NCBI RefSeq assembly: GCF_027359395.1
Contig: NZ_CP114778.1
Coordinates: 1,364,001 to 1,428,000 of the forward strand
Reading direction: 5' to 3'
DNA length: 64,000 bases
Source: Prochlorococcus marinus str. MIT 1013
GTDB taxonomy: Bacteria > Cyanobacteriota > Cyanobacteriia > PCC-6307 > Cyanobiaceae
The notes beneath the pieces are model-generated. The model saw nothing but the letters and a program-made list of their open reading frames with translations. It made no database searches and had not been told where the DNA came from. Numbering within the stretch: the first letter of the stretch is position 1; every line of letters starts with the position of its first letter. Position numbers and translations under genes: made by a program. This document shows, piece by piece, positions 2,339-64,000 of this stretch.

Positions 2339-5245
2339 TCAAATAGAATTAATATCTTCTAAATCTTCAACTGAAGGACAAGTACATATCAAATTCCTGT
2401 CTCCGTAAGCATTATTAATACGTGAAACTGATGGCCAAAATTTATATTTTTCTTGATCAGGCAATGGATAAGCTGCTTCTTTACGAGAATAAGGTCTATC
2501 CCAATCATCTGATGTAACTGTTTTTAAAGTATGTGGAGATTGTTTTAAAGGATTATTAATAGGATCAATCTTTCCTAATTTTATTTGTTCAATTTCTTCG
2601 CGAATTCCAATCATAGCCTCACAAAAACGATCTAATTCAGACAAACTTTCACTTTCTGTTGGTTCAACCATCAAAGTTCCAGCAACAGGCCAACTAATTG
2701 TTGGTGCATGAAATCCATAATCCATCAATCTCTTGGCAACATCCTCAACTTCTATGCCTACCTGACTCTTTAAAGGTCGTAAATCTAATATGCATTCATG
2801 AGCTACCAAGCCATTGGGATCTTTAAATAAAACGGGAAAATAAGGATCAAGTCGTTTTGCTAAATAATTAGCAGAGAGGATTGCGATTGAACTTGCCTTG
2901 CGTAAACCATCTTTCCCCATCATTCGAATGTACATCCAACTGATCGGCAATATTCCAGCACTGCCAAATGGAGCTGCAGAGACTGCCGAAATAGCCTTTT
3001 CGCCTCCACACTTAACAATTGAATGTCCAGGAAGATAAGGAACCAAATGGCTGGCAACAGCTATGGGGCCTACGCCTGGGCCTCCACCTCCATGAGGAAT
3101 GGAAAAAGTTTTATGAAGATTCAAATGGCACACATCTATCCCATAAGATCCAGGCCTGCAAATACCTACTTGAGCATTCAGATTTGCACCATCCAAATAG
3201 ACTTGACCGCCCTCTTGATGAATGACTTGGCAAATTTCACGAATATTCGGCTCAAATACTCCATGAGTTGAAGGATAGGTAACCATCAATGCAGCCAAAT
3301 TCTTTGAATGAATCTTTGATTTATCTCTTAAATCTTCCAAATCAACATTGCCGTATTCATCACATTTGACAGAAACAACTTTAAAACCAGACATGACCGC
3401 GCTAGCTGGATTGGTACCGTGGGCACTTGTTGGAATCAAGCAAATATTTCTATGCCCTTCTCCAAGAGATTGATGCCACGAACGTATTACAAGCAAACCA
3501 GCAAATTCTCCTTGGGAACCTGCATTTGGCTGAAGGGAAACTCCCTGAAAACCAGTTAAAGCTGACAGCCAACTTTCAAGATCATTAATTATTTCATTGA
3601 ATCCAGCTAATTGAACATTTGGAGTAAAGGGATGAATAGAGGAAAACTCGCTCCATTCAATAGGCAAAAGTTCCGCAGCTGCATTCAATTTCATAGTGCA
3701 GCTGCCAAGAGGAATCATTCCTTGAACTAAAGAAAAATCTTTCGAAACTAAAAAATTTATGTATCTCATTAAATCAGTCTCACTCTGATATTTGTTAAAT
3801 ACCAATTGTTCAAGCCAAGGTTGATCTCGAAGTGGGATTCCTGTTAGTGAATAATTTTCATCCAGAAAAGTAGAAAGATTATTAACTTTTTTTCCTTTCA
3901 CTTTTGCAAGTATTTTATGTAATTTATCAATTTCTTCATCACAAGTTAATTCATCAAAAGTTACTCCAAAACCCTTGATATTTTGATTGTCTGAACCAAT
4001 AGGGAGAACTCTCAGGTTGTATCCTTCCTTAGAAGCAACCTTAATTACTTCTTTTGCTTCTGGACAATAAATATCAAGACTATCAAAACCTGAATATTTT
4101 TCTAAAGGATAATTTAAATGCGTGATAATAGATTCAAAACATGATCTGTATTTAACAATCTTTTTAGCGATTTCTTTAAGACCATTTGGACCATGATGTA
4201 CTGCATAAAAAGAAGAAAGAACAGCTAATAATACTTGAGCAGTGCAAATGTTACTTGTTGCTTTATCTCTTCGAATGTGTTGCTCTCTAGTCTGAAGGGC
4301 AAGCCTCAAAGCCTGATTACCTTCTACGTCAACTGATTGACCCACTATCCTTCCTGGTATTTGTCTTTTATATATTTCTTTAGTTGCAAAAAAAGCAGCA
4401 TGTGGTCCACCAAAAGCAATAGGAACACCAAATCTTTGCGCACTTCCAACTACAATATCTGCCCCAAATTCTCCCATAGGTTTAATCAAAACTTGAGCTA
4501 AGGGATCAATTGCAATAGTGACAATTGCATCAAATTTGTGTGCCTGATCGATTATTGAGGTTGGATCCCAAATGCGACCATTTTTTCCGGGTAACTGAAT
4601 AAGTATTCCGAAGACATGATTATCAATTTCAAAATTATTGTTATCAAAGATCTCAATTACAATTCCTAATGGTTCACATCGAGTTTTTAATACATCAAAA
4701 GTTTGAGGGAGAATTTCTTTATCTACTAAAAATTTATTAGCATTTTTATTTTTTCTAACAGCCAAACTTAAACTTATTGCCTCAGCTGCCGCAGTCGCTT
4801 CATCAAGTAAAGACGCATTTGATATGGGCAAACCTGTTAACTCACTGATTAAAGTCTGAAAATTAAATAAGGCTTCTAATCTGCCTTGAGATATTTCTGC
4901 TTGATAAGGAGTATAAGCTGTGTACCAATTGGGATTTTCTAGAACATTTCTTTGTACAACTGGTGGTATCTGAGTCGAATGATAACCCAGCCCAATCAGC
5001 GAACGATTTTCAATATTTTTCTTTGAGATTATTTTGATTTCTTTTAAGGCTTGATTTTGATCACATCCATCAGGTATAGATGCAACAAAATTTTCAGAAT
5101 CAAAAATTTCATTAGGAATTACAGAAGATATGAATTCTTCCGAAGTGTCAAAACCAAGATGTTTAAGCATTAAAGCTTCATCTTCGTTAGTTGGACCTAT
5201 ATGGCGAGACTTAAAAGTTAAATCCTTTAATTCTGCTTTTGACAT
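2339..5245 (-). CDS. gcvP: Glycine dehydrogenase (decarboxylating), glycine cleavage P-protein
   Basis: PLP enzyme that decarboxylates glycine and passes the aminomethyl group to the lipoyl arm of GcvH. In cyanobacteria it helps clear photorespiratory glycine and feeds one-carbon folate pools. It is the long single-chain form, about 968 residues from the ATG at 5245; an in-frame TTG 8 codons upstream is less likely. The PLP lysine lies in [18 protein letters not shown] (about K712 counted from that ATG). The N-terminal half opens with the typical [20 protein letters not shown]. It is transcribed after gcvH with a gap of about 100 bp. GcvT is encoded separately at 25203. Confidence 0.97.
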
Positions 5246-33539: not shown

Positions 33540-34325
33540 CTATATAGGAATTGGGAATGTCACTTCAGCTGGCTTTGGAGAGCAAGCTTCTACTTGAAAA
33601 TCCACAACTGAACCTATTACAACAATCGCAGGAGACCTTAAATTTTCTTCTTGAACTCGCTCAAAAAGCCTAACCAAAGGGCTCTTAATATAACGTTGAC
33701 CAATTACAGTCCCCTGCTCAATAACTGCCGCAGAAGTCTCAGGATTCATACCACCAGCAATCAACTCTGCTGAGATAAATTTTAAATTATGAACACCCAT
33801 ATATATAACGATTCCATCACTGGATTTCGCTAAAGACCGCCAATTTACAGCTGGGCGTTTTTTATCAATCCCCTCATGTCCAGTCACAAAAGTAACTGAA
33901 GATCCAGCAAGTCTATGAGTAACAGGTATCCCAACATAAGCAGGAGCAGCTATACCAGATGTAACCCCAGGTACGACTTGTACTGGAACCCCTTTTTTAT
34001 GAAGATAAGAAGCTTCTTCCGCACCTCTACCAAACAAAAATGGATCACCACCTTTTAATCTAACGATACAAGAATAACTCTTTGCTAAATCAAACAAAAT
34101 ATCATTCGTTGTCCTCTGAGGTACCGAATGATGACCACGCCTCTTGCCTACTGAATGGAGTTGACAATTTGAGGAAACTAATTCAAGTAGCTCTAAAGGA
34201 ACTAAAGAGTCGTATACAAGCGCATCACATTTACTAATTAGTTTTTGCGCTTTAACTGTTAATAAATCGGGATCACCAGGACCGGCTCCGACAAGATGTA
34301 CAGTGCCAAACTGATTTGTATTCAT
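33540..34325 (-). CDS. cobA: Uroporphyrinogen-III C-methyltransferase
   Basis: Methylates uroporphyrinogen III twice to precorrin-2, the branch point to siroheme and cobalamin. 261 residues. The SAM motif VGAGPGDPDLLTVKAQ is at about 12-27; LKGGDPFLFGRGAEEA and VVPGVTSGIAAPAYVGIPVTHR follow. It overlaps the CbiX-like gene upstream by 4 bp. Lying opposite nirA, its likely job is siroheme for nitrite reductase, though it also feeds cobalamin. Confidence 0.96.
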   Translation of the reverse strand: MNTNQFGTVHLVGAGPGDPDLLTVKAQKLISKCDALVYDSLVPLELLELVSSNCQLHSVGKRRGHHSVPQRTTNDILFDLAKSYSCIVRLKGGDPFLFGRGAEEASYLHKKGVPVQVVPGVTSGIAAPAYVGIPVTHRLAGSSVTFVTGHEGIDKKRPAVNWRSLAKSSDGIVIYMGVHNLKFISAELIAGGMNPETSAAVIEQGTVIGQRYIKSPLVRLFERVQEENLRSPAIVVIGSVVDFQVEACSPKPAEVTFPIPI

Positions 34326-35215
34326 GGCAAGTTACCCAAAATATTAACAAGACCACGATGAATGATATCAATCTCAAGCAAAGATTTCAGCTGCTCTCCT
34401 TTACTATCAATTTCTACATTTTTGTTGGGAGTCAAAAGATAGGGAATAGGAAGATAATTCTTCTCCTTTTTAAAAGTATATTGATTCCATATAGACCATG
34501 AATAAAGAGGAATATTGAGTAATTTTTCTAAGGACTTAAGAAAAACACTTGAAATATCTGAAGAGACAGGGTGATGAATCAATGCAGGTTTAACAAAAGG
34601 TCTCTGACTAGTTATCAGATCATCTATTAATGATAGCCATGGCATAAAAGAACCTAGGAAAGGAAACAATTTTATATTTTGTCCCTCTTCTTGCAAACGT
34701 TTAAATATTTTTGGTACATCAATACAAACATGACTTCCAGGTAACAGAAAAAGAGGAACTAAAACCACTGATCTATTACCGATGTCAATTTGCTCTGGAT
34801 TATCATCAGTTAAAGCCTCTATTGAAACAGAGCGATTTTTAAGCCGTTTTAATTGGTCAACCAAAGAAAGAAGAGATGGATGTATCTCACCACCTCGAGA
34901 ACCATGAACTAATAAATGTAAATGGTGAGGAGGCTCACAATTAATTCTATTTGGTAACAAAGACAACTTTTGATGGACATCTGAAGATGTATTAGTACTT
35001 TCAACTAATTTATTAAAATTCAAATGATGAGAAGTTTTAGATACTCGGGAACAAATAATTTCAGACGAGGAGAAGGCGTTGATCGAAGAAACACTCAATA
35101 CAGAGGAAGAAGAAGATTCAAAAGTACGTTTCATAGAGACCTTTTTGCTATGAAAGAGGTTTGGGAAATGCTCAAAAGTGGAGCGATTAGAAGCCTCGGA
35201 GAAATTGGACGCCAA
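34322..35215 (-). CDS. CbiX-like sirohydrochlorin chelatase with long Ser-rich N-terminus
   Basis: The core from about residue 100 (HLHLLVHGSRGGEIHPSLLS) is the CbiX/SirB class II chelatase signature, with H104 and R107. VVLVPLFLLPGSHVCIDVPK has the second conserved His. Expected to put Fe(II) into sirohydrochlorin, giving siroheme. The 100 residues before it are Ser-rich (ESSSSSVLSVSSINAFSSSE) and lack family resemblance, so the start could lie further in. ATG 35215 and MKRTF at 35134 are the available ATGs. The stop overlaps the cobA start by 4 bp (ATGA). It is divergent from nirA. Confidence 0.82.
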   Translation of the reverse strand: MASNFSEASNRSTFEHFPNLFHSKKVSMKRTFESSSSSVLSVSSINAFSSSEIICSRVSKTSHHLNFNKLVESTNTSSDVHQKLSLLPNRINCEPPHHLHLLVHGSRGGEIHPSLLSLVDQLKRLKNRSVSIEALTDDNPEQIDIGNRSVVLVPLFLLPGSHVCIDVPKIFKRLQEEGQNIKLFPFLGSFMPWLSLIDDLITSQRPFVKPALIHHPVSSDISSVFLKSLEKLLNIPLYSWSIWNQYTFKKEKNYLPIPYLLTPNKNVEIDSKGEQLKSLLEIDIIHRGLVNILGNLP

Positions 35216-35268: not shown

Positions 35269-35282
35269 GTATTGAATGATAC
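35269..35282. promoter_or_regulatory. NtcA-binding site 1 (GTA-N8-TAC) between cbiX and nirA
   Basis: GTATTGAATGATAC is a perfect match to the consensus GTA-N8-TAC of NtcA, the cyanobacterial nitrogen regulator. It is centred at 35275.5, 100 bp before the nirA ATG and 54 bp before the longest cbiX start. A perfect TATAAT (35293-35298) follows 10 bp after. As the site is symmetric it could serve either gene. Confidence 0.75.
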
Positions 35283-35302: not shown

Positions 35303-35316
35303 GTAAAAACTGATAC
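35303..35316. promoter_or_regulatory. NtcA-binding site 2 (GTA-N8-TAC), nirA-proximal
   Basis: GTAAAAACTGATAC is a second perfect consensus match, 34 bp centre-to-centre from site 1. A TAATAATAT stretch starts 24 bp further at 35341 and could be the -10. This spacing (20-24 bp is usual for NtcA-activated promoters) places the transcription start near 35353-35357, which fits the nirA ATG at 35369 and argues against the upstream in-frame start at 35333. Confidence 0.75.
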
Positions 35317-35368: not shown

Positions 35369-37030
35369 ATGGTTCAATATTATCTAGAAGGCAAAAAACT
35401 AAATCAAGTCGAGAAAAATAAAGCTGCTAAAGATGGACTTGAAATAGGAAAGGATATAGATAAATTTGCTGAAATGGGATGGGAGGAAATGGATAAAACA
35501 GATTTAGAATTAAGATTGAAATGGTACGGGATGTTTTGGAGACCAAAAACACCTGGAAAGTTTATGTTAAGGCTAAGAATACCTAATGGAATAATCAATG
35601 CAGAACAATTAAATGTAATTGCGTCAATTGTTGCAAGATATGGAGAGAATGGAAGTTGTGACATAACAACTAGGCAAAATATACAACTTAGAGGTGTTTT
35701 AATTAGTGATTTACCTGAGATATTAAATAGATTAAAAAAAGTAAACATATCAACAACTCAATCTGGATTTGATAATCCAAGAAATGTTACTGGAAATCCA
35801 ATTGCTGGAGTTGATCCAGAAGAAATTATAGACACAAGAAAATATACATCAAAAATGCAAGATCATTTAATTAAAGAGGGCAAAGGAAATTCAGAATTTT
35901 CAAATCTTCCAAGAAAATGGAACACAGCTATAGCTGGCTCTAAAGATAATTTTCTTTTACATAACGATTTAATTTTCCATCCAGTTAAAATTAATGATGT
36001 TTTAGGTTTTAGTGTTTGGGTTGGAGGTGTACTTTCATCAGTAATGAATGAATATGCAGTTCCATTAAATGCCTGGGTTGAAGAAGAAAAAATTTATGAA
36101 TTAACATCAATTATTTTATCCCTCTGGAGAGATAATGGGGAACGCAATATAAGACCTAAAGGTAGGTTTAGATTTTATTTAAATAAAATTGGTATTGAAA
36201 CATTTAGAGATCTTGTAGAAAAGCAATATGGAGAATTAAAAGAAGATCCAGGTTCAATCTTTGCAGATAAACCAAGATCATTTTTTGGAATTCATCCTCA
36301 AAAACAAGAACATAAATTTTTTGCAGGAATTCATGTTCCAGTAGGTCGCCTTTTAGCTGAAGATTTACAAGATCTAGCAAATATATGCGAAGCTTTTGGT
36401 GATAGTGAAATAAGACTAACCGAAGATCAAAATATTATTTTTACTAATATAGATACAAATCTAATTGAAGAATTTAAGGGGCAATCTCTCTTACAAAAGT
36501 TTCCATTAGAACCAGAAACTATTGCAGCAGGTACTGTTTCTTGTACTGGAAATACCTATTGTGGATTCGCTCTAACAAATACAAAAGATCAAGCTTTAAA
36601 AATCTCGCATGAATTAGACACAGAATTAGATTTGAAAGACGAATTAAAGATTCATTGGACCGGATGTCCTAATAGTTGTGGGCAAGCCTACATGGGAGGA
36701 ATTGGTTTAACAGGTAAAAAAGCTAAAAACAAAGAAGGAAAAACCGTTGAAGCTTACGATATAAGCATTGGTGGATCACAAGGACCTAATTATAAATTAG
36801 GAGAATTAATAAAAAAATCTGTCCCTCAAGATGAATTAAAAGATGTACTAAAAGATTTACTTATCTCAAATTTTGAGGCAAAAGAAAAAATATTTTTAAG
36901 TAAAAAATCTGGTTCATTATCTCGATTTATGAATTGGTTTAGTCCTCTTGGCAAAGATAAACCGCTGATTAATCGAGCTAATGGCAGCCCAGACTTCTTT
37001 TCCAAATTTATGAATCGAATTAGTAATTAA
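35369..37030 (+). CDS. nirA: Ferredoxin-nitrite reductase with C-terminal tail
   Basis: Reduces nitrite to ammonium with six electrons from ferredoxin. The siroheme-[4Fe-4S] cysteines are C392, C398 (CTGNTYC) and C433, C437 (CPNSC), counted from the ATG at 35369. MFWRPKTPGKFMLRLRIPNG and DITTRQNIQLRGV are conserved substrate motifs. 553 residues. Cyanobacterial NirA usually ends nearer 510-520, and the last 38 residues (from SRFMNWFSPLGKDKPLINRA) look like an appended tail whose 3' end is tandemly duplicated downstream. I chose 35369 over 35333 because of the NtcA promoter geometry. Confidence 0.96.
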   Translation: MVQYYLEGKKLNQVEKNKAAKDGLEIGKDIDKFAEMGWEEMDKTDLELRLKWYGMFWRPKTPGKFMLRLRIPNGIINAEQLNVIASIVARYGENGSCDITTRQNIQLRGVLISDLPEILNRLKKVNISTTQSGFDNPRNVTGNPIAGVDPEEIIDTRKYTSKMQDHLIKEGKGNSEFSNLPRKWNTAIAGSKDNFLLHNDLIFHPVKINDVLGFSVWVGGVLSSVMNEYAVPLNAWVEEEKIYELTSIILSLWRDNGERNIRPKGRFRFYLNKIGIETFRDLVEKQYGELKEDPGSIFADKPRSFFGIHPQKQEHKFFAGIHVPVGRLLAEDLQDLANICEAFGDSEIRLTEDQNIIFTNIDTNLIEEFKGQSLLQKFPLEPETIAAGTVSCTGNTYCGFALTNTKDQALKISHELDTELDLKDELKIHWTGCPNSCGQAYMGGIGLTGKKAKNKEGKTVEAYDISIGGSQGPNYKLGELIKKSVPQDELKDVLKDLLISNFEAKEKIFLSKKSGSLSRFMNWFSPLGKDKPLINRANGSPDFFSKFMNRISN

Positions 37031-37113
37031 TTCGATTTTATAAAAAATTATTTTTCTTACTTTTTAAATTTATGACTCAAAGTACTTCTCAAATGAACTA
37101 CGTCTTACCTAAA
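36911..37113 (+). repeat. 203-bp tandem duplication, copy 1
   Basis: Copy 1 holds the last ~36 codons of nirA, the 41-bp intergenic spacer and the first ~14 codons of a transporter-like N-terminus. The exact period is 203 bp: the nirA stop (37030 vs 37233), the downstream ATG (37072 vs 37275) and the MNWF codon (36929 vs 37132) all shift by 203. The copies diverge at the ends, so the boundaries are approximate. Confidence 0.95.
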
Positions 37114-37233
37114 GATTCTATTTCTCGTTTCATGAATTGGTTTAGTCCTCTTGGCAAAGATAAACCGCTGATTAATCGAGCTAATGGCAGCCCCGACATC
37201 TTTTCCAAATTTATGAATCGAATTAGTAATTAA
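37072..37233 (+). CDS. Chimeric 53-residue ORF: transporter N-terminus fused to NirA tail
   Basis: ATG 37072 to TAA 37231-37233, created by the tandem duplication. Residues 1-15 (MTQSTSQMNYVLPKD) match the transporter start (MTSSASQMDYVLPNE). Residues 16-53 (SISRFMNWFSPLGKDKPLIN onward) match the NirA C-terminal tail. Between the two tail copies most base changes are synonymous, and the others are conservative (L/I, F/I), which hints at selection on the protein, but the sample is small. It has its own identical upstream spacer, so it should be translated if the transporter is. Real gene or duplication debris: undecided. Confidence 0.5.
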   Translation: MTQSTSQMNYVLPKDSISRFMNWFSPLGKDKPLINRANGSPDIFSKFMNRISN

Positions 37234-37316
37234 TTCGATTTTATAAAAAATTATTTTTCTTACTTTTTAAATTTATGACTTCAAGTGCTTCTCAAATGGA
37301 CTACGTTCTACCAAAT
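37114..37316 (+). repeat. 203-bp tandem duplication, copy 2
   Basis: The second copy spans the tail of the chimeric ORF, an identical 41-bp spacer and the real start of the transporter gene. About 82 bp around the stop codon and spacer are identical to copy 1, while the coding ends differ by scattered changes. Such a pattern fits an older duplication partly re-homogenised by gene conversion, or constraint on the spacer. Confidence 0.95.
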
Positions 37317-38186
37317 GAATTGGTAGATGGAATGATTGCTGCAGGTGGAAAGAAATCATCTGTAAGCGTAAAAAACTTGCTAATAAGAGGCTTCTATTCA
37401 GGAGCAATTTTAGGTTTAGCGACATGTCTTGCAATTACTATAGGTATTCAATCTGGGATGCCTTGGTTAGGTTCTTTTATATTTCCTTTTGGTTTTGCAA
37501 GTATCGTCCTTTTCGGTATGGAGCTTGTTACTGGTAATTTTGCGTTACTACCAATGGCCGTATGGGCTGGAAAGAGTTCTTGGTCTGCAACTGTAAGGAA
37601 TTGGCTATGGGTTTGGATCGGTAATTTTCTAGGTACAGCATTTGTTGCAGTTCTACTATCCATAAGCTTGTCCAGTGCTGGAAATGTTGATCCATTAACT
37701 GCTGCTGAAGGTGGAAAGGGATGGGCAGTTGTTGCAGCAAAAATAATAGCTATACATAAAGCAAACACAGTTGTTAAATATGAAGCACTTGGCAGTACTG
37801 GTTTTTTCCTTGCATTTTTACGTGGAGTAATTGCAAACTGGCTGGTTTGTTTAGGTGTAACAATGGCACTTGTAAGTAAAAGTGTTCCAGGAAAGATACT
37901 TGCTTGCTGGCTACCTATAACTGCATTCCAAACAATGGGAATGGAGCACATAGTAGTTAATATGTTTTTGCATACAACTGGTCCTCTACTTGGTTCTGGT
38001 ATTCCTTTTACAAAAGTAATTTTTTGGAATTTCTTACCAGTGACGATTGGAAATATTGTTGGAGGAATGGTATTTATTGGAATGCTTTTCTATAGCACTC
38101 ACAAAACTCCAATCTCTAACGTTTTACCTGCCGTCAAAGATGAAAAACTAGAAAGAGAGGTAGCAGCACAACTTGGTGCAAGATAA
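37275..38186 (+). CDS. focA: Formate/nitrite transporter family protein, probable nitrite channel
   Basis: A 303-residue FNT-family membrane protein with six expected helices. The first is at about 39-60 (SGAILGLATCLAITIGIQSG); GMELVTGNFALLPMAVWAGK is the FNT signature, and GMEHIVVNMFLHT carries the pore region with His. Being directly downstream of nirA, the likely cargo is nitrite. The FNT family also moves formate, lactate or hydrosulfide. The gene reads through to a strong terminator at 38215. Confidence 0.93.
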   Translation: MTSSASQMDYVLPNELVDGMIAAGGKKSSVSVKNLLIRGFYSGAILGLATCLAITIGIQSGMPWLGSFIFPFGFASIVLFGMELVTGNFALLPMAVWAGKSSWSATVRNWLWVWIGNFLGTAFVAVLLSISLSSAGNVDPLTAAEGGKGWAVVAAKIIAIHKANTVVKYEALGSTGFFLAFLRGVIANWLVCLGVTMALVSKSVPGKILACWLPITAFQTMGMEHIVVNMFLHTTGPLLGSGIPFTKVIFWNFLPVTIGNIVGGMVFIGMLFYSTHKTPISNVLPAVKDEKLEREVAAQLGAR

Positions 38187-38404: not shown

Positions 38405-39115
38405 ATGATTATTGAAGAAAGCAATATATGGGATACCATTAATAACGCGAAAAAAAAGAAGCCAAGCGCTGAGTGGCTTAAGACTGCATACAATCCAAAT
38501 ATTAACTTTGAACTTAGACAAGAAATCGCTATTCGCTTGGGACAATTATCAAAAGTAGGATGGATAAAAATAAAAGATCTACTTAAGACGTATGGAAATA
38601 AAGACGAACTAATCCTTGCTGCAGGACTGACTTATCAAGATGATGCCAAAGAATGGCTCTTAAACCATCTTTATAGTGATGACACAATGAACATCAAAGT
38701 CGTAGAAGCTTTGGCTTGCTTTGGAGGAACCTTACCGATTGAGCTTATTAAAAAAACATTAGAAGAAAAAAGTGAACAAATGAAAATAGCTGGTTTAGAA
38801 TTATTAAAATTCAAAGCTCATTTACTTTCTGATTGTGATTTACTTGACATAGCAAAATCTCCTTTAAATGATTTCAGAGAAGAGATAGTGATCAAAACAC
38901 TGACAATAATTCAAAGACGTGAAAGCCTAGATATCTGTAAAGCCATCCGCGATGTAATACAAAAAGGCTCGGATAAATCTGCATACTATGGACTAATGGC
39001 TCTTGGTTCAATCGGTACTGAAATTAGTAAAAAAATCCTATTAGATTTAGTTAAAAATTTAAAGAATGCTGAGCGCAAAGAACTTGCAAAAAAACAACTT
39101 AACTTTGAAATATAA
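38405..39115 (+). CDS. HEAT-repeat protein next to the nitrite genes
   Basis: A 236-residue all-helical protein with repeats of about 30 residues: LRQEIAIRLGQLSKVGWIKI, VVEALACFGGTLPIELIKKT, EEIVIKTLTIIQRRESLDIC, YYGLMALGSIGTEISKKIL. These resemble HEAT/PBS-lyase-type repeats. In other cyanobacteria a HEAT-type protein encoded beside nirA (NirB-like) supports nitrite reductase; by position this may be its counterpart, but that is inference. It is 6 bp before the trpD2-like gene, so the two form a pair. Confidence 0.75.
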   Translation: MIIEESNIWDTINNAKKKKPSAEWLKTAYNPNINFELRQEIAIRLGQLSKVGWIKIKDLLKTYGNKDELILAAGLTYQDDAKEWLLNHLYSDDTMNIKVVEALACFGGTLPIELIKKTLEEKSEQMKIAGLELLKFKAHLLSDCDLLDIAKSPLNDFREEIVIKTLTIIQRRESLDICKAIRDVIQKGSDKSAYYGLMALGSIGTEISKKILLDLVKNLKNAERKELAKKQLNFEI

Positions 39116-62080: not shown

Positions 62081-64000
62081 TTAATTACTTTTAAAAAGTC
62101 GAAAATGCTTTAAACCATCAACAACTCCCTCTTGAGCATCAGAAAAGAAAACCCTTTGTTGGGATCTTAATCCATCTAATGATGAATCATGATCAAAAGG
62201 AATAACACTATTAGTCAATCCCTTGATTAACTCTGCATCACCTTGTTTACTCGCAACAATAAAAACTTTTTCTAGAGATAAACCCCAACGTAAAGTCAAA
62301 AATCTAATAGCTTCTGCTCTTGATGCTCGCAAAGGAACAATATCCAAGTACCAATGACATTTCAGATGTGGAGATGCCGCAAGTCCAGACTGCCTTAATC
62401 TTTTACGAACTAAAGGTAAAATGGCATCACTAGGTTCTTTCAATAAATAGCTAATCTTAAAAATACCTTGCTGATCTGTTGATTGAAGCTCTAAATAATC
62501 TTTTAAATCAAACAAAACTTTTTCTACCCCTGTTCGATTCCAATCAACGCTTATGGAATCTTGCCAAAAAATATCCGATTTATTTTCATCAGCATAATAA
62601 ATTTCTGTACCAGCTTGGCATATCCAAACTGCTGGTGTAGGTAATTGTGTTTCTGGATATCTTTGCCGAGCAGCTTTAACTGATCTTCCAGTTAATATTC
62701 CTAACTTAATATCAAGGTCAAATGAATGTTTTTTTAACTGATTTCTCAACTTTGATGAGGCTTGGGGTTGCTCAAGATAGTTATCTAAATCAAGAAGTAA
62801 TAATTTCTTACCAATAGGGCTTGTGTCCTTAGCATTCCCCAATGTCCAGTGTCGAGGTGCAAGAAATTTCAAACGCTTCTGCATCAATGCAATGTAATTA
62901 CAAATATGAGCGTCCCAACTGAAGTGCCTGCTTACTCCCTCAATTCCATTGTTACTCCACGTTTTCCATAAAGAAGGGTTTGAACCAGCAGTCTCTAAAC
63001 CATCTCGTAACGCTTCTAAGTCAGTTACATCAACGAGTAGTCCATTTTCACAACGAGACAGAATATCCCTTGGGCCACCATCATCAGTAGCTACCATAGG
63101 CAATCCACATGAAGCAGCTTCCAATAATGTTAAACCGAATGGCTCAGTTAAAGCAGGGTTAACAAATAGTCCCTTTTTATGGGCAACCCAACGATAAATT
63201 AAGGGGATTTGGTCTCTTTTATGTTGTTTGGGATAAGCAACTTTTCCGTATAAATTATATTTATCAACCAATTCAAAAACCTGCTGAAATACTTCTCTTT
63301 GTTGTTTATCAAGCTGACGTGAATCATCTCGACTACCTAAAATTAAAATAAGATTATGTCTTTGCTGCAAAATTGGCGAACGTCCATAAGTCTCAATCAA
63401 AGCAGGAATATTTTTTCTCCTTACTGCTCTTGATATAGCTAAGAGAGGAGGAAGATTTATATCTCTCAAAAAAGGTTTAAAAAGTTTGTGTAATTCTTTT
63501 TCTTCTTCCTTCAAATTAGAATCTATTGAATGAAAACGATTTAAATCAACACCAGGTGGAATTATTTCTACGTTCTTTGAACTAAATCGCCCATAACGCG
63601 CGTACTGTTCAACTGATTCCTGCTTAGTACTTGTTATAAGTAAGTTTGAATGCGCTAAAGCCAATTCTTCTGCATCTATTCTTTTACTAATTGAATAAGT
63701 TTGCTCTATTTGATCATGATCTATACCAGCAGCCAATAATCTTCTAAGTTTTTCCCGGCCTAGTGAGTGACCAGTAAAAACCAATGGCAATCCTAATCTT
63801 CTACTTACCAATGCGCCAACATATCCAGCATCTGCATAATGAGCATGAATCCAATCAGGAAAATTATTTTCTTTCTGTAATCTTTGAACTATTTGATCGG
63901 CTAAATCATCTAAATAAGGCCACAATAATTCTTTCCTAATATAACGCTTAGGACCAAAAGATAACCGAATAATTTCCGCACTATTTGATATCTTTTCAAC
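62081..64000 (-). CDS. sps: Sucrose-phosphate synthase with phosphatase-like C-terminal domain (5' end off the window)
   Basis: Makes sucrose-6-phosphate from UDP-glucose and fructose-6-phosphate, giving sucrose as compatible solute. The frame is open to base 64000 on the minus strand; before the first Met-type codon in view the translation reads SFGPKRYIRKELLWPYLDDL, the SPS glucose-phosphate loop, so the gene begins outside. FGLTLLEAASCGLPMVATDDGGPRDI holds the EX7E motif. From about residue 372 of the visible part (KLLLLDLDNYLEQ) a HAD phosphatase-like domain follows; its motif is DLDNY, with the usual Thr replaced, so phosphatase activity is uncertain. Confidence 0.93.
   Translation of the reverse strand, partial: VEKISNSAEIIRLSFGPKRYIRKELLWPYLDDLADQIVQRLQKENNFPDWIHAHYADAGYVGALVSRRLGLPLVFTGHSLGREKLRRLLAAGIDHDQIEQTYSISKRIDAEELALAHSNLLITSTKQESVEQYARYGRFSSKNVEIIPPGVDLNRFHSIDSNLKEEEKELHKLFKPFLRDINLPPLLAISRAVRRKNIPALIETYGRSPILQQRHNLILILGSRDDSRQLDKQQREVFQQVFELVDKYNLYGKVAYPKQHKRDQIPLIYRWVAHKKGLFVNPALTEPFGLTLLEAASCGLPMVATDDGGPRDILSRCENGLLVDVTDLEALRDGLETAGSNPSLWKTWSNNGIEGVSRHFSWDAHICNYIALMQKRLKFLAPRHWTLGNAKDTSPIGKKLLLLDLDNYLEQPQASSKLRNQLKKHSFDLDIKLGILTGRSVKAARQRYPETQLPTPAVWICQAGTEIYYADENKSDIFWQDSISVDWNRTGVEKVLFDLKDYLELQSTDQQGIFKISYLLKEPSDAILPLVRKRLRQSGLAASPHLKCHWYLDIVPLRASRAEAIRFLTLRWGLSLEKVFIVASKQGDAELIKGLTNSVIPFDHDSSLDGLRSQQRVFFSDAQEGVVDGLKHFRLFKSN

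Follow-up and report, generated by a model that had tools for sequence, protein, structure and literature searches.

The window analyzed here is the whole stretch of 64,000 nucleotides from Prochlorococcus marinus str. MIT 1013, and positions refer to it throughout. In it, nirA is followed on the same strand by a 41-bp spacer, a 53-aa ORF, an identical 41-bp spacer, and focA. The features of the locus are given below with coordinates, strand, and description.

35269-35282, +, match to GTAN8TAC upstream of nirA (pattern search)
35303-35316, +, second match to GTAN8TAC upstream of nirA (pattern search)
35369-37030, +, nirA, ferredoxin-nitrite reductase of 553 aa with a fused C-terminal module (NCBIfam PRK09566 equivalog, E 9e-260)
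36913-37115, +, repeat unit, copy 1 (repeat search, TRF, direct comparison)
36920-37030, +, fused small-protein module (SRFMNWF...FMNRISN), the last 36 NirA residues, homologous to separate picocyanobacterial ORFs of 41-49 aa
37012-37038, +, predicted stem-loop covering the stop codon of nirA (RNA fold at -9.5 kcal/mol, with z near -4 relative to base-composition shuffles)
37031-37071, +, spacer 1, 41 bp, same sequence as spacer 2 (sequence)
37072-37233, +, free small ORF of 53 aa, made of 17 FocA-derived residues and the 36-residue module (open in 17 of 17 repeat carriers)
37116-37318, +, repeat unit, copy 2 (repeat search, TRF, direct comparison)
37215-37241, +, the same predicted stem-loop over the stop codon of the free ORF (RNA fold)
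37234-37274, +, spacer 2, 41 bp (sequence)
37275-38186, +, focA (nitM), nitrite channel of the formate/nitrite transporter family, 303 aa (homology; transport function from the accessible text of PMC4390861)
38124-38183, +, charged C-terminal segment of FocA, last 20 residues (sequence comparison; inhibitory role from the same text of PMC4390861)

The original prediction held that a 203-bp tandem repeat crosses the nirA-focA junction and that a 53-codon ORF between its copies joins a transporter N-terminus to the NirA tail. A repeat search of the window recovered the two copies with a period of exactly 203 and 93% identity, direct comparison gave 188 of 203 identical positions, and the ORF is present and intact, with stops at 37030 and 37233 and ATGs at 37072 and 37275 where they had been placed. 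The TRF score of this array is 718, the remaining four arrays in the window scoring 50-58, and chance cannot account for a 203-bp tandem repeat at 93% identity. The identity of about 82 bp foreseen around the spacer corresponds to the longest identical stretch between the copies, 82 bp starting at 36996. From SRFMNWF to the stop, the copies differ by the same four changes that had been listed, three synonymous (R CGA/CGT, F TTT/TTC, and P CCA/CCC) and the fourth F/I. The PRK09566 match spans residues 2-506 of the 552-aa query (35372-37027), and the NirA tail falls outside it. In the window’s own genome, a profile of the module finds the fused copy (E 9.8e-21) and the free ORF (E 3.4e-21); a third, weak match at 63259-63306 on the minus strand (E 0.048) lies within a long same-strand ORF and was taken as chance rather than as a real module copy.

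Outside this lineage, the NirA tail is a protein of its own. The chimeric protein was searched (tblastn) against the FocA loci of public genomes, of which the best 80 of 96 were kept, and there the tail sequence forms an ORF of its own immediately before focA. A stop-anchored motif search of these best 80 of 96 loci found the module, whole or partial, in 75, and none in L079, L086, L095, L096, and L099. Fifteen of the 80 loci are of the window’s type; 58 of the 65 from other lineages encode the module as an independent ORF of 41-49 aa, 12 to 101 bases before focA, with start codons that are our choice among candidates, and L091 and L105 have merely a half-motif, on NirA. Four columns (D, S, N, and S) are invariant across an alignment of forty module sequences, the window’s and 39 others, and the consensus comprises two helices similar to each other, xDxFSRFVNWxS and xDFFSKLMNRIS. 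The window ORF fits the two-motif pattern xDxFSRFVNWxS...GxxDxFSKLMNRIS, reading DSISRFMNW for the consensus DxFSRFVNW. When modeled alone with AlphaFold2, it shows helices at residues 14-27 and 43-52 with modest confidence (mean pLDDT 64.7), and the module helices are amphipathic (hydrophobic moment 0.59-0.68 for six motif peptides). Searches with three module proteins against Pfam and NCBIfam recovered 0 families at E up to 5, which set aside a known family, and the best PDB match of the module profile (E 0.17) was not accepted as a solved relative. Further module copies were observed away from the nitrite cluster at L155 (1861-2133) and L156 (about 1696-1797), as was a decayed copy with two stops (G069, contig C26, 16681-16794).

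The pooled dN/dS of the separate ORFs is 0.15 over 78 close pairs (38 of the 58 ORFs in 11 groups), a figure to which one group of ten supplies 45 pairs, with group values of 0.04-0.43 and one group without differences. No second copy that could serve for conversion was seen at these loci, and the separate small protein is under purifying selection. Because the module is already separate in 58 of the 65 other-lineage loci, the duplication re-created rather than invented a free protein. The idea that the duplication creates a chimeric ORF thus stands as far as the junction is concerned, since a FocA start was joined to the tail, but not as to origin: a free copy of an existing small protein was restored, now with a borrowed FocA start.

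The duplication had also been proposed to be old, kept open, and possibly subject to gene conversion, and its relatives bear this out. Repeat DNA of the window’s type was matched in 22 of the 41 genomes of the genus, the window’s own included, at the same place in the relatives; one of them, G035, is a 41-bp stray and was set aside, leaving 21. Together with the window, 35 loci of its type yielded 21 distinct sequences, outside of which are L001, L002, and L024, which repeat the sequence of the window or that of G005, and the strays L023 and L025. At least two repeat copies are present in 17 of the 21, the window among them, and L012 (G005) has two free copies of the small ORF; the other four (L019-L022) have a single unit, with the NirA tail directly before focA. 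In all 17 repeat carriers, the free ORF is unbroken by stops and 53 codons long, and length changes are confined to the spacers (one base more in spacer 2 of L017, one base fewer in both spacers of L018). Five genomes of the genus are single contigs that encode FocA (G000, G002, G003, G005, and G006), and every one of them has the free copy. The single-copy genomes (G012, G026, G028, and G030) are drafts, in which assemblies may have collapsed, and they fall in two places among the double-copy genomes in a midpoint-rooted tree of NirA and FocA, so the duplication is probably older than this Prochlorococcus group.

Lineage-specific changes recur in both spacers, which match each other exactly in 14 of the 17 genomes. 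The mean distance between copies is 0.0498 within and 0.0893 between genomes, with none of 20,000 permutations as low. As the within-genome distance is the lower one, yet a copy’s own partner is its nearest in only 8 of the 17 genomes (ties counted), gene conversion between the copies is recurrent but incomplete. Pooled over the 17 genomes, dN/dS values are 0.12 (free ORF), 0.11 (NirA tail), and 0.04 (FocA); because conversion can import the constraint of NirA, the low figure for the free ORF proves less than it seems to. Its 17 N-terminal codons, which on average have not been converted with focA (pS 0.403 within and 0.405 between genomes), give 0.30 on their own, from few changes. Synonymous variation is low in this FocA-derived start (pS 0.036 for 37072-37122 and the same 51 nt of 16 relatives), compared with 0.264 in the first FocA codons and 0.249 in the module, and this may reflect a constraint on translation initiation. 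We infer that the free copy is translated in this lineage.

In the RNA, each of the two stop codons is predicted to lie in a stem-loop of 11-12 bp, with z from -3.9 to -5.3 in all eight distinct 40-mers of the lineage; at the same position in other lineages, z is above -2.5 in 14 of 19 loci. The two GTAN8TAC matches upstream of nirA are presumably NtcA-type boxes, and two such boxes are as expected for NtcA control. In WH7803, nirA, the small ORF, and nitM are co-transcribed, the small ORF is strongly upregulated, with values of +193.92 and +238.82 that we take as fold changes, and RNA processing has been suggested for the operon (accessible text of PMC9430850).

Two rival readings concern selection on the free ORF and the RNA. 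In one of them, selection acts on the NirA tail only and conversion keeps a functionless free ORF open, as would fit the homogenized repeat copies, the unique N-terminal codons too few to prove selection, and the four sequences with a single copy. However, 17 of the 21 sequences keep the free ORF, including all five single-contig genomes, the changes in length spare it, the separate form is usual in other lineages, and the single-copy cases, being drafts at two places in the tree, are losses or assembly collapse. We consider this reading quite improbable, and random debris, already doubted in the original prediction, is ruled out by the same retention of the ORF. In the other, the second stem-loop tunes mRNA processing or focA expression. 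Its presence over both stops throughout the lineage and the processing suggested in WH7803 agree with this, but the structure is weak in most of the other loci, whereas the ORF is conserved there, which makes an RNA-level role very unlikely. The anatomy and history of the locus, that is, the repeat, its age, its open frame, its concerted evolution, the protein family, and the fusion, are in our judgment well supported, and we hold them with high confidence.

The distribution of the module was examined in 400 genomes of the window’s family, drafts included, with one threshold per gene. The module profile matched in 134 of them, FocA in 154, and NirA in 170. The module was found in 133 of the 154 genomes with FocA against 1 of the 246 without it, the exception being the draft G159, and among NirA-bearing genomes in 127 of 145 with FocA against 1 of 25 without; none of the 221 genomes lacking both NirA and FocA had it. 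The Fisher p is 8e-17, a value that ignores kinship, and genera g1, g5, and g18 each include NirA-bearing genomes with FocA and others without it. Of the nine FocA-bearing genomes below the NirA threshold, six keep the module, one of these, G195, being a 64%-complete draft. FocA occurs without the module in 21 genomes, ten of them in genus g9; 18 genomes with both NirA and FocA have no module match, ten belonging to g9 and one, G019, being scored module-negative at a contig break. Five NirA-bearing genomes of the window’s genus without FocA gave no profile match, and one of them, G004, encodes a divergent NirA without a tail, FocA and the module being absent. In the G004 locus (L153, 613-2896), nirA is followed directly by what appears by eye to be a relative of the window gene at 38405-39115. 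L104 resembles the loci of the genomes below the NirA threshold, with a 44%-identical NirA about 1.8 kb before the module and another ORF between them. Among 292 genomes of the phylum, all 16 strong module matches lie inside the window’s family, two weak matches outside it (E 4e-4 and 7e-3) being left uncounted. In the 400 family genomes, the module tracks FocA, not NirA, and FocA is on this ground the likelier partner of the small protein, in partial agreement with the idea in the original prediction that it could link NirA and the transporter.

The tails of NirA vary among 50 aligned sequences. The full module is present in the window’s lineage, the second motif only in L085, L091, and L105 and also in L092, a single helix like the first motif in many Prochlorococcus, and no tail motif in most marine Synechococcus. 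Judging from this alignment, the fusion point would lie between a motif native to NirA and the small ORF’s first motif. An AlphaFold2 model of the fused NirA (50 sequences; pTM 0.80) leaves the tail undocked, with pLDDT below 50 for residues 510-553.

The FocA segment at 38124-38183 is presumed to be the counterpart of the segment that inhibits picocyanobacterial NitM. Three genomes, G110, G251, and G245, which we take to be MIT9313, CC9311, and CC9605, are informative here. G110 and G251 have the small ORF, and their FocA matches extend to the last residue; G245 and its congener G299 have neither the small ORF nor the C-terminal segment, and since these two segment-less FocA proteins come from one genus, they probably represent one event. 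In the accessible text of PMC4390861, NitM of MIT9313 and of CC9311, expressed alone in S. elongatus, was inactive until its conserved charged C-terminus was removed, NitM of CC9605, from which this segment is naturally missing, was active, and an activating mechanism acting on the C-terminus was postulated in 2015. In the later literature accessible to us, we found no answer as to how picocyanobacterial NitM is switched on. As genomes of the MIT9313 and CC9311 types carry the small ORF, the published assay lacked a neighbor of the same operon. Of the 21 genomes with FocA and no module, 11 loci were examined; nine keep the C-terminal segment, two of these nine, from g9, in altered form, and four of the nine are in 88-99% complete genomes outside g9 (G063, G094, G115, and G325).

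The module is also found in phage DNA. Two IMG/VR contigs, L136 and L137, identical over 10,138 bp and probably one phage, encode a 48-aa module ORF at 5001-5147, with psbA 1.6 kb upstream and neither nirA nor focA within the 10,138-bp stretch. This ORF weakly matches phrog_1986 (PHROG, function unknown; E 0.0073), and a comparison of two module proteins with 50,697 phage records found nothing at E up to 1. On another phage contig, L138, focA comes first and nirA second, with an ORF unrelated to the module between them; its FocA keeps the C-terminal segment, and no module was found in the 9 kb around the two genes. By eye, the short intervening ORF (L138, 4252-4440) is AbrB-like.

Because it is the operon neighbor left out of the NitM assay and is co-transcribed and upregulated, we propose the small protein as a partner of FocA and its likeliest activator. 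Direct partnership with FocA is, in our estimate, evenly balanced, and activation of FocA/NitM by the small protein is a more tentative suggestion on which we lean toward doubt. In favor of the activator proposal are the separate ORF upstream of focA in most other-lineage loci, the low dN/dS of separate and free forms, the association with FocA, which extends to the six genomes below the NirA threshold and to the genomes without FocA that lack the module, the tail-less NirA of G004, the presence of the ORF in the presumed strains whose NitM is inactive alone and its joint absence with the segment in G245, the WH7803 transcription data, and the psbA-bearing phage contig. Against it stand the 18 genomes with NirA and FocA and no module match, the nine module-less loci that keep the segment, the phage FocA of L138 with its segment, the undocked tail in the model, the single-copy sequences, the gene conversion with NirA that confounds any sign of selection on the free copy, and the merely presumed identities of the three strains. 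Two other roles share part of this evidence. The small protein could bind NirA and tune its activity, as a picocyanobacterial analog of NirP1. Whole or partial modules form NirA tails in several lineages, and NirP1 is reported absent from Prochlorococcus, where nitrite release is said to work without it (accessible text of PMC10907346), but 24 of the 25 NirA-bearing genomes without FocA have no module and the modeled tail does not dock on NirA, so we regard this as unlikely. Alternatively, in line with the link between NirA and the transporter raised in the original prediction, the helices could be a structural tether holding NirA at the membrane or at FocA for nitrite handover, without gating. 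The amphipathic helices, the flexible NirA tail of the model, the link of the module to FocA, and the fusion to NirA all suit a tether. It is harder to reconcile with a module that is mostly a separate ORF and that a phage carries without focA or nirA within a 10-kb locus, and we find it improbable.

A two-helix protein of 41-49 aa directly precedes focA at most picocyanobacterial FocA loci. In this Prochlorococcus lineage, its ORF was joined to the C-terminus of NirA, after which the 203-bp tandem duplication across nirA, spacer, and focA yielded a free copy again, beginning with the duplicated focA start region; both forms are kept and homogenized by gene conversion. Under the activator proposal, the small protein would act in trans on FocA/NitM, likeliest by relieving the block by the charged C-terminus, such that nitrite may enter only when the assimilation machinery is present. 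The NirA fusion could couple channel opening to the reductase, with the free copy as an extra or diffusible supply of activator. Taken as a whole, from relief of the C-terminal block to the NirA fusion and the re-freed copy, the proposal is possible, although we give it somewhat less than an even chance. A bolder version, which we consider rather unlikely, is that the small protein is the missing activator, that LLI-type Prochlorococcus wired it onto NirA and made channel opening proportional to reducing capacity, that the duplication keeps a free pool, and that a cyanophage carries the activator alone, raising nitrite uptake by its host. The primary nitrite maximum of the ocean may owe its form to how Prochlorococcus takes up and releases nitrite (accessible text of PMC10470740), and the locus offers a candidate for the NitM switch and a natural fusion that points to its pathway.

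Several known systems invite comparison. According to the accessible text of PMC10470740, MIT0917, an LLI strain that releases nitrite, encodes a distinct NirA but is without FocA, and WH8102 is also without FocA and does not release nitrite; G004 resembles the MIT0917 kind, and in G004 the module is absent too. PirN is a DUF1830 protein reported absent from Prochlorococcus (accessible text of PMC13205821) and was discarded as a candidate. NirP1 is, like the module, a small protein linked to cyanobacterial nitrite reduction, and it binds nitrite reductase; according to the accessible text of PMC10907346, however, most NirP1 proteins measure 76-86 aa and share an absolutely conserved Cys and three Trp, and none turned up in Prochlorococcus. 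By contrast, 41-53 aa, a single conserved Trp, and no Cys characterize the module proteins (40 aligned), and homology is thus ruled out. We also rejected nirX as a name for the small ORF; it presumably denotes the divergent ORF at 34322-35215, and the literature accessible to us lists it with nirA, undefined. The autoinhibited NitM/FocA of alpha-cyanobacteria is closer, as the same transporter adjoins the module and the window FocA has a similar charged C-terminus, but the activating mechanism was merely postulated there and no partner is named in the accessible text of PMC4390861. The viral scaffold described in the accessible text of PMC8115048 has focA before nirA; locus L138 is similar to it, and its intervening ORF is unrelated to the module.

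Two published genes are the nearest counterparts. G110, our presumed MIT9313, has the module between nirA and focA, and the uncharacterized gene cited as co-expressed at that place in MIT9313 (accessible text of PMC8115048) is very likely the same small ORF. SynWH7803_RS12335, a 44-aa ORF in the nirA-nitM gap, is like the window module in place and strand, length, sequence family, and its two predicted helices, and its likeness to the NirA proteins of CB0101 and Prochlorococcus NATL2A had already been pointed out (accessible text of PMC9430850); our record of WH7803, L097, has a 44-aa module ORF at that place. Among the literature accessible to us, with subscription papers mostly outside its scope, we found nothing on the fusion, the duplication, or a regulatory link between module and FocA. 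The separate ORF with its likeness to NirA and the MIT9313 counterpart were thus already in print, and new here is the identity of the NirA tail. SynWH7803_RS12335 is a separate gene of unknown function, whereas its relative in the window has become part of NirA and exists once more as a free copy, which owes its FocA-derived N-terminus to the tandem duplication: a single small protein stands alone in most lineages, was joined to NirA in one, and there regained a free form under concerted evolution.
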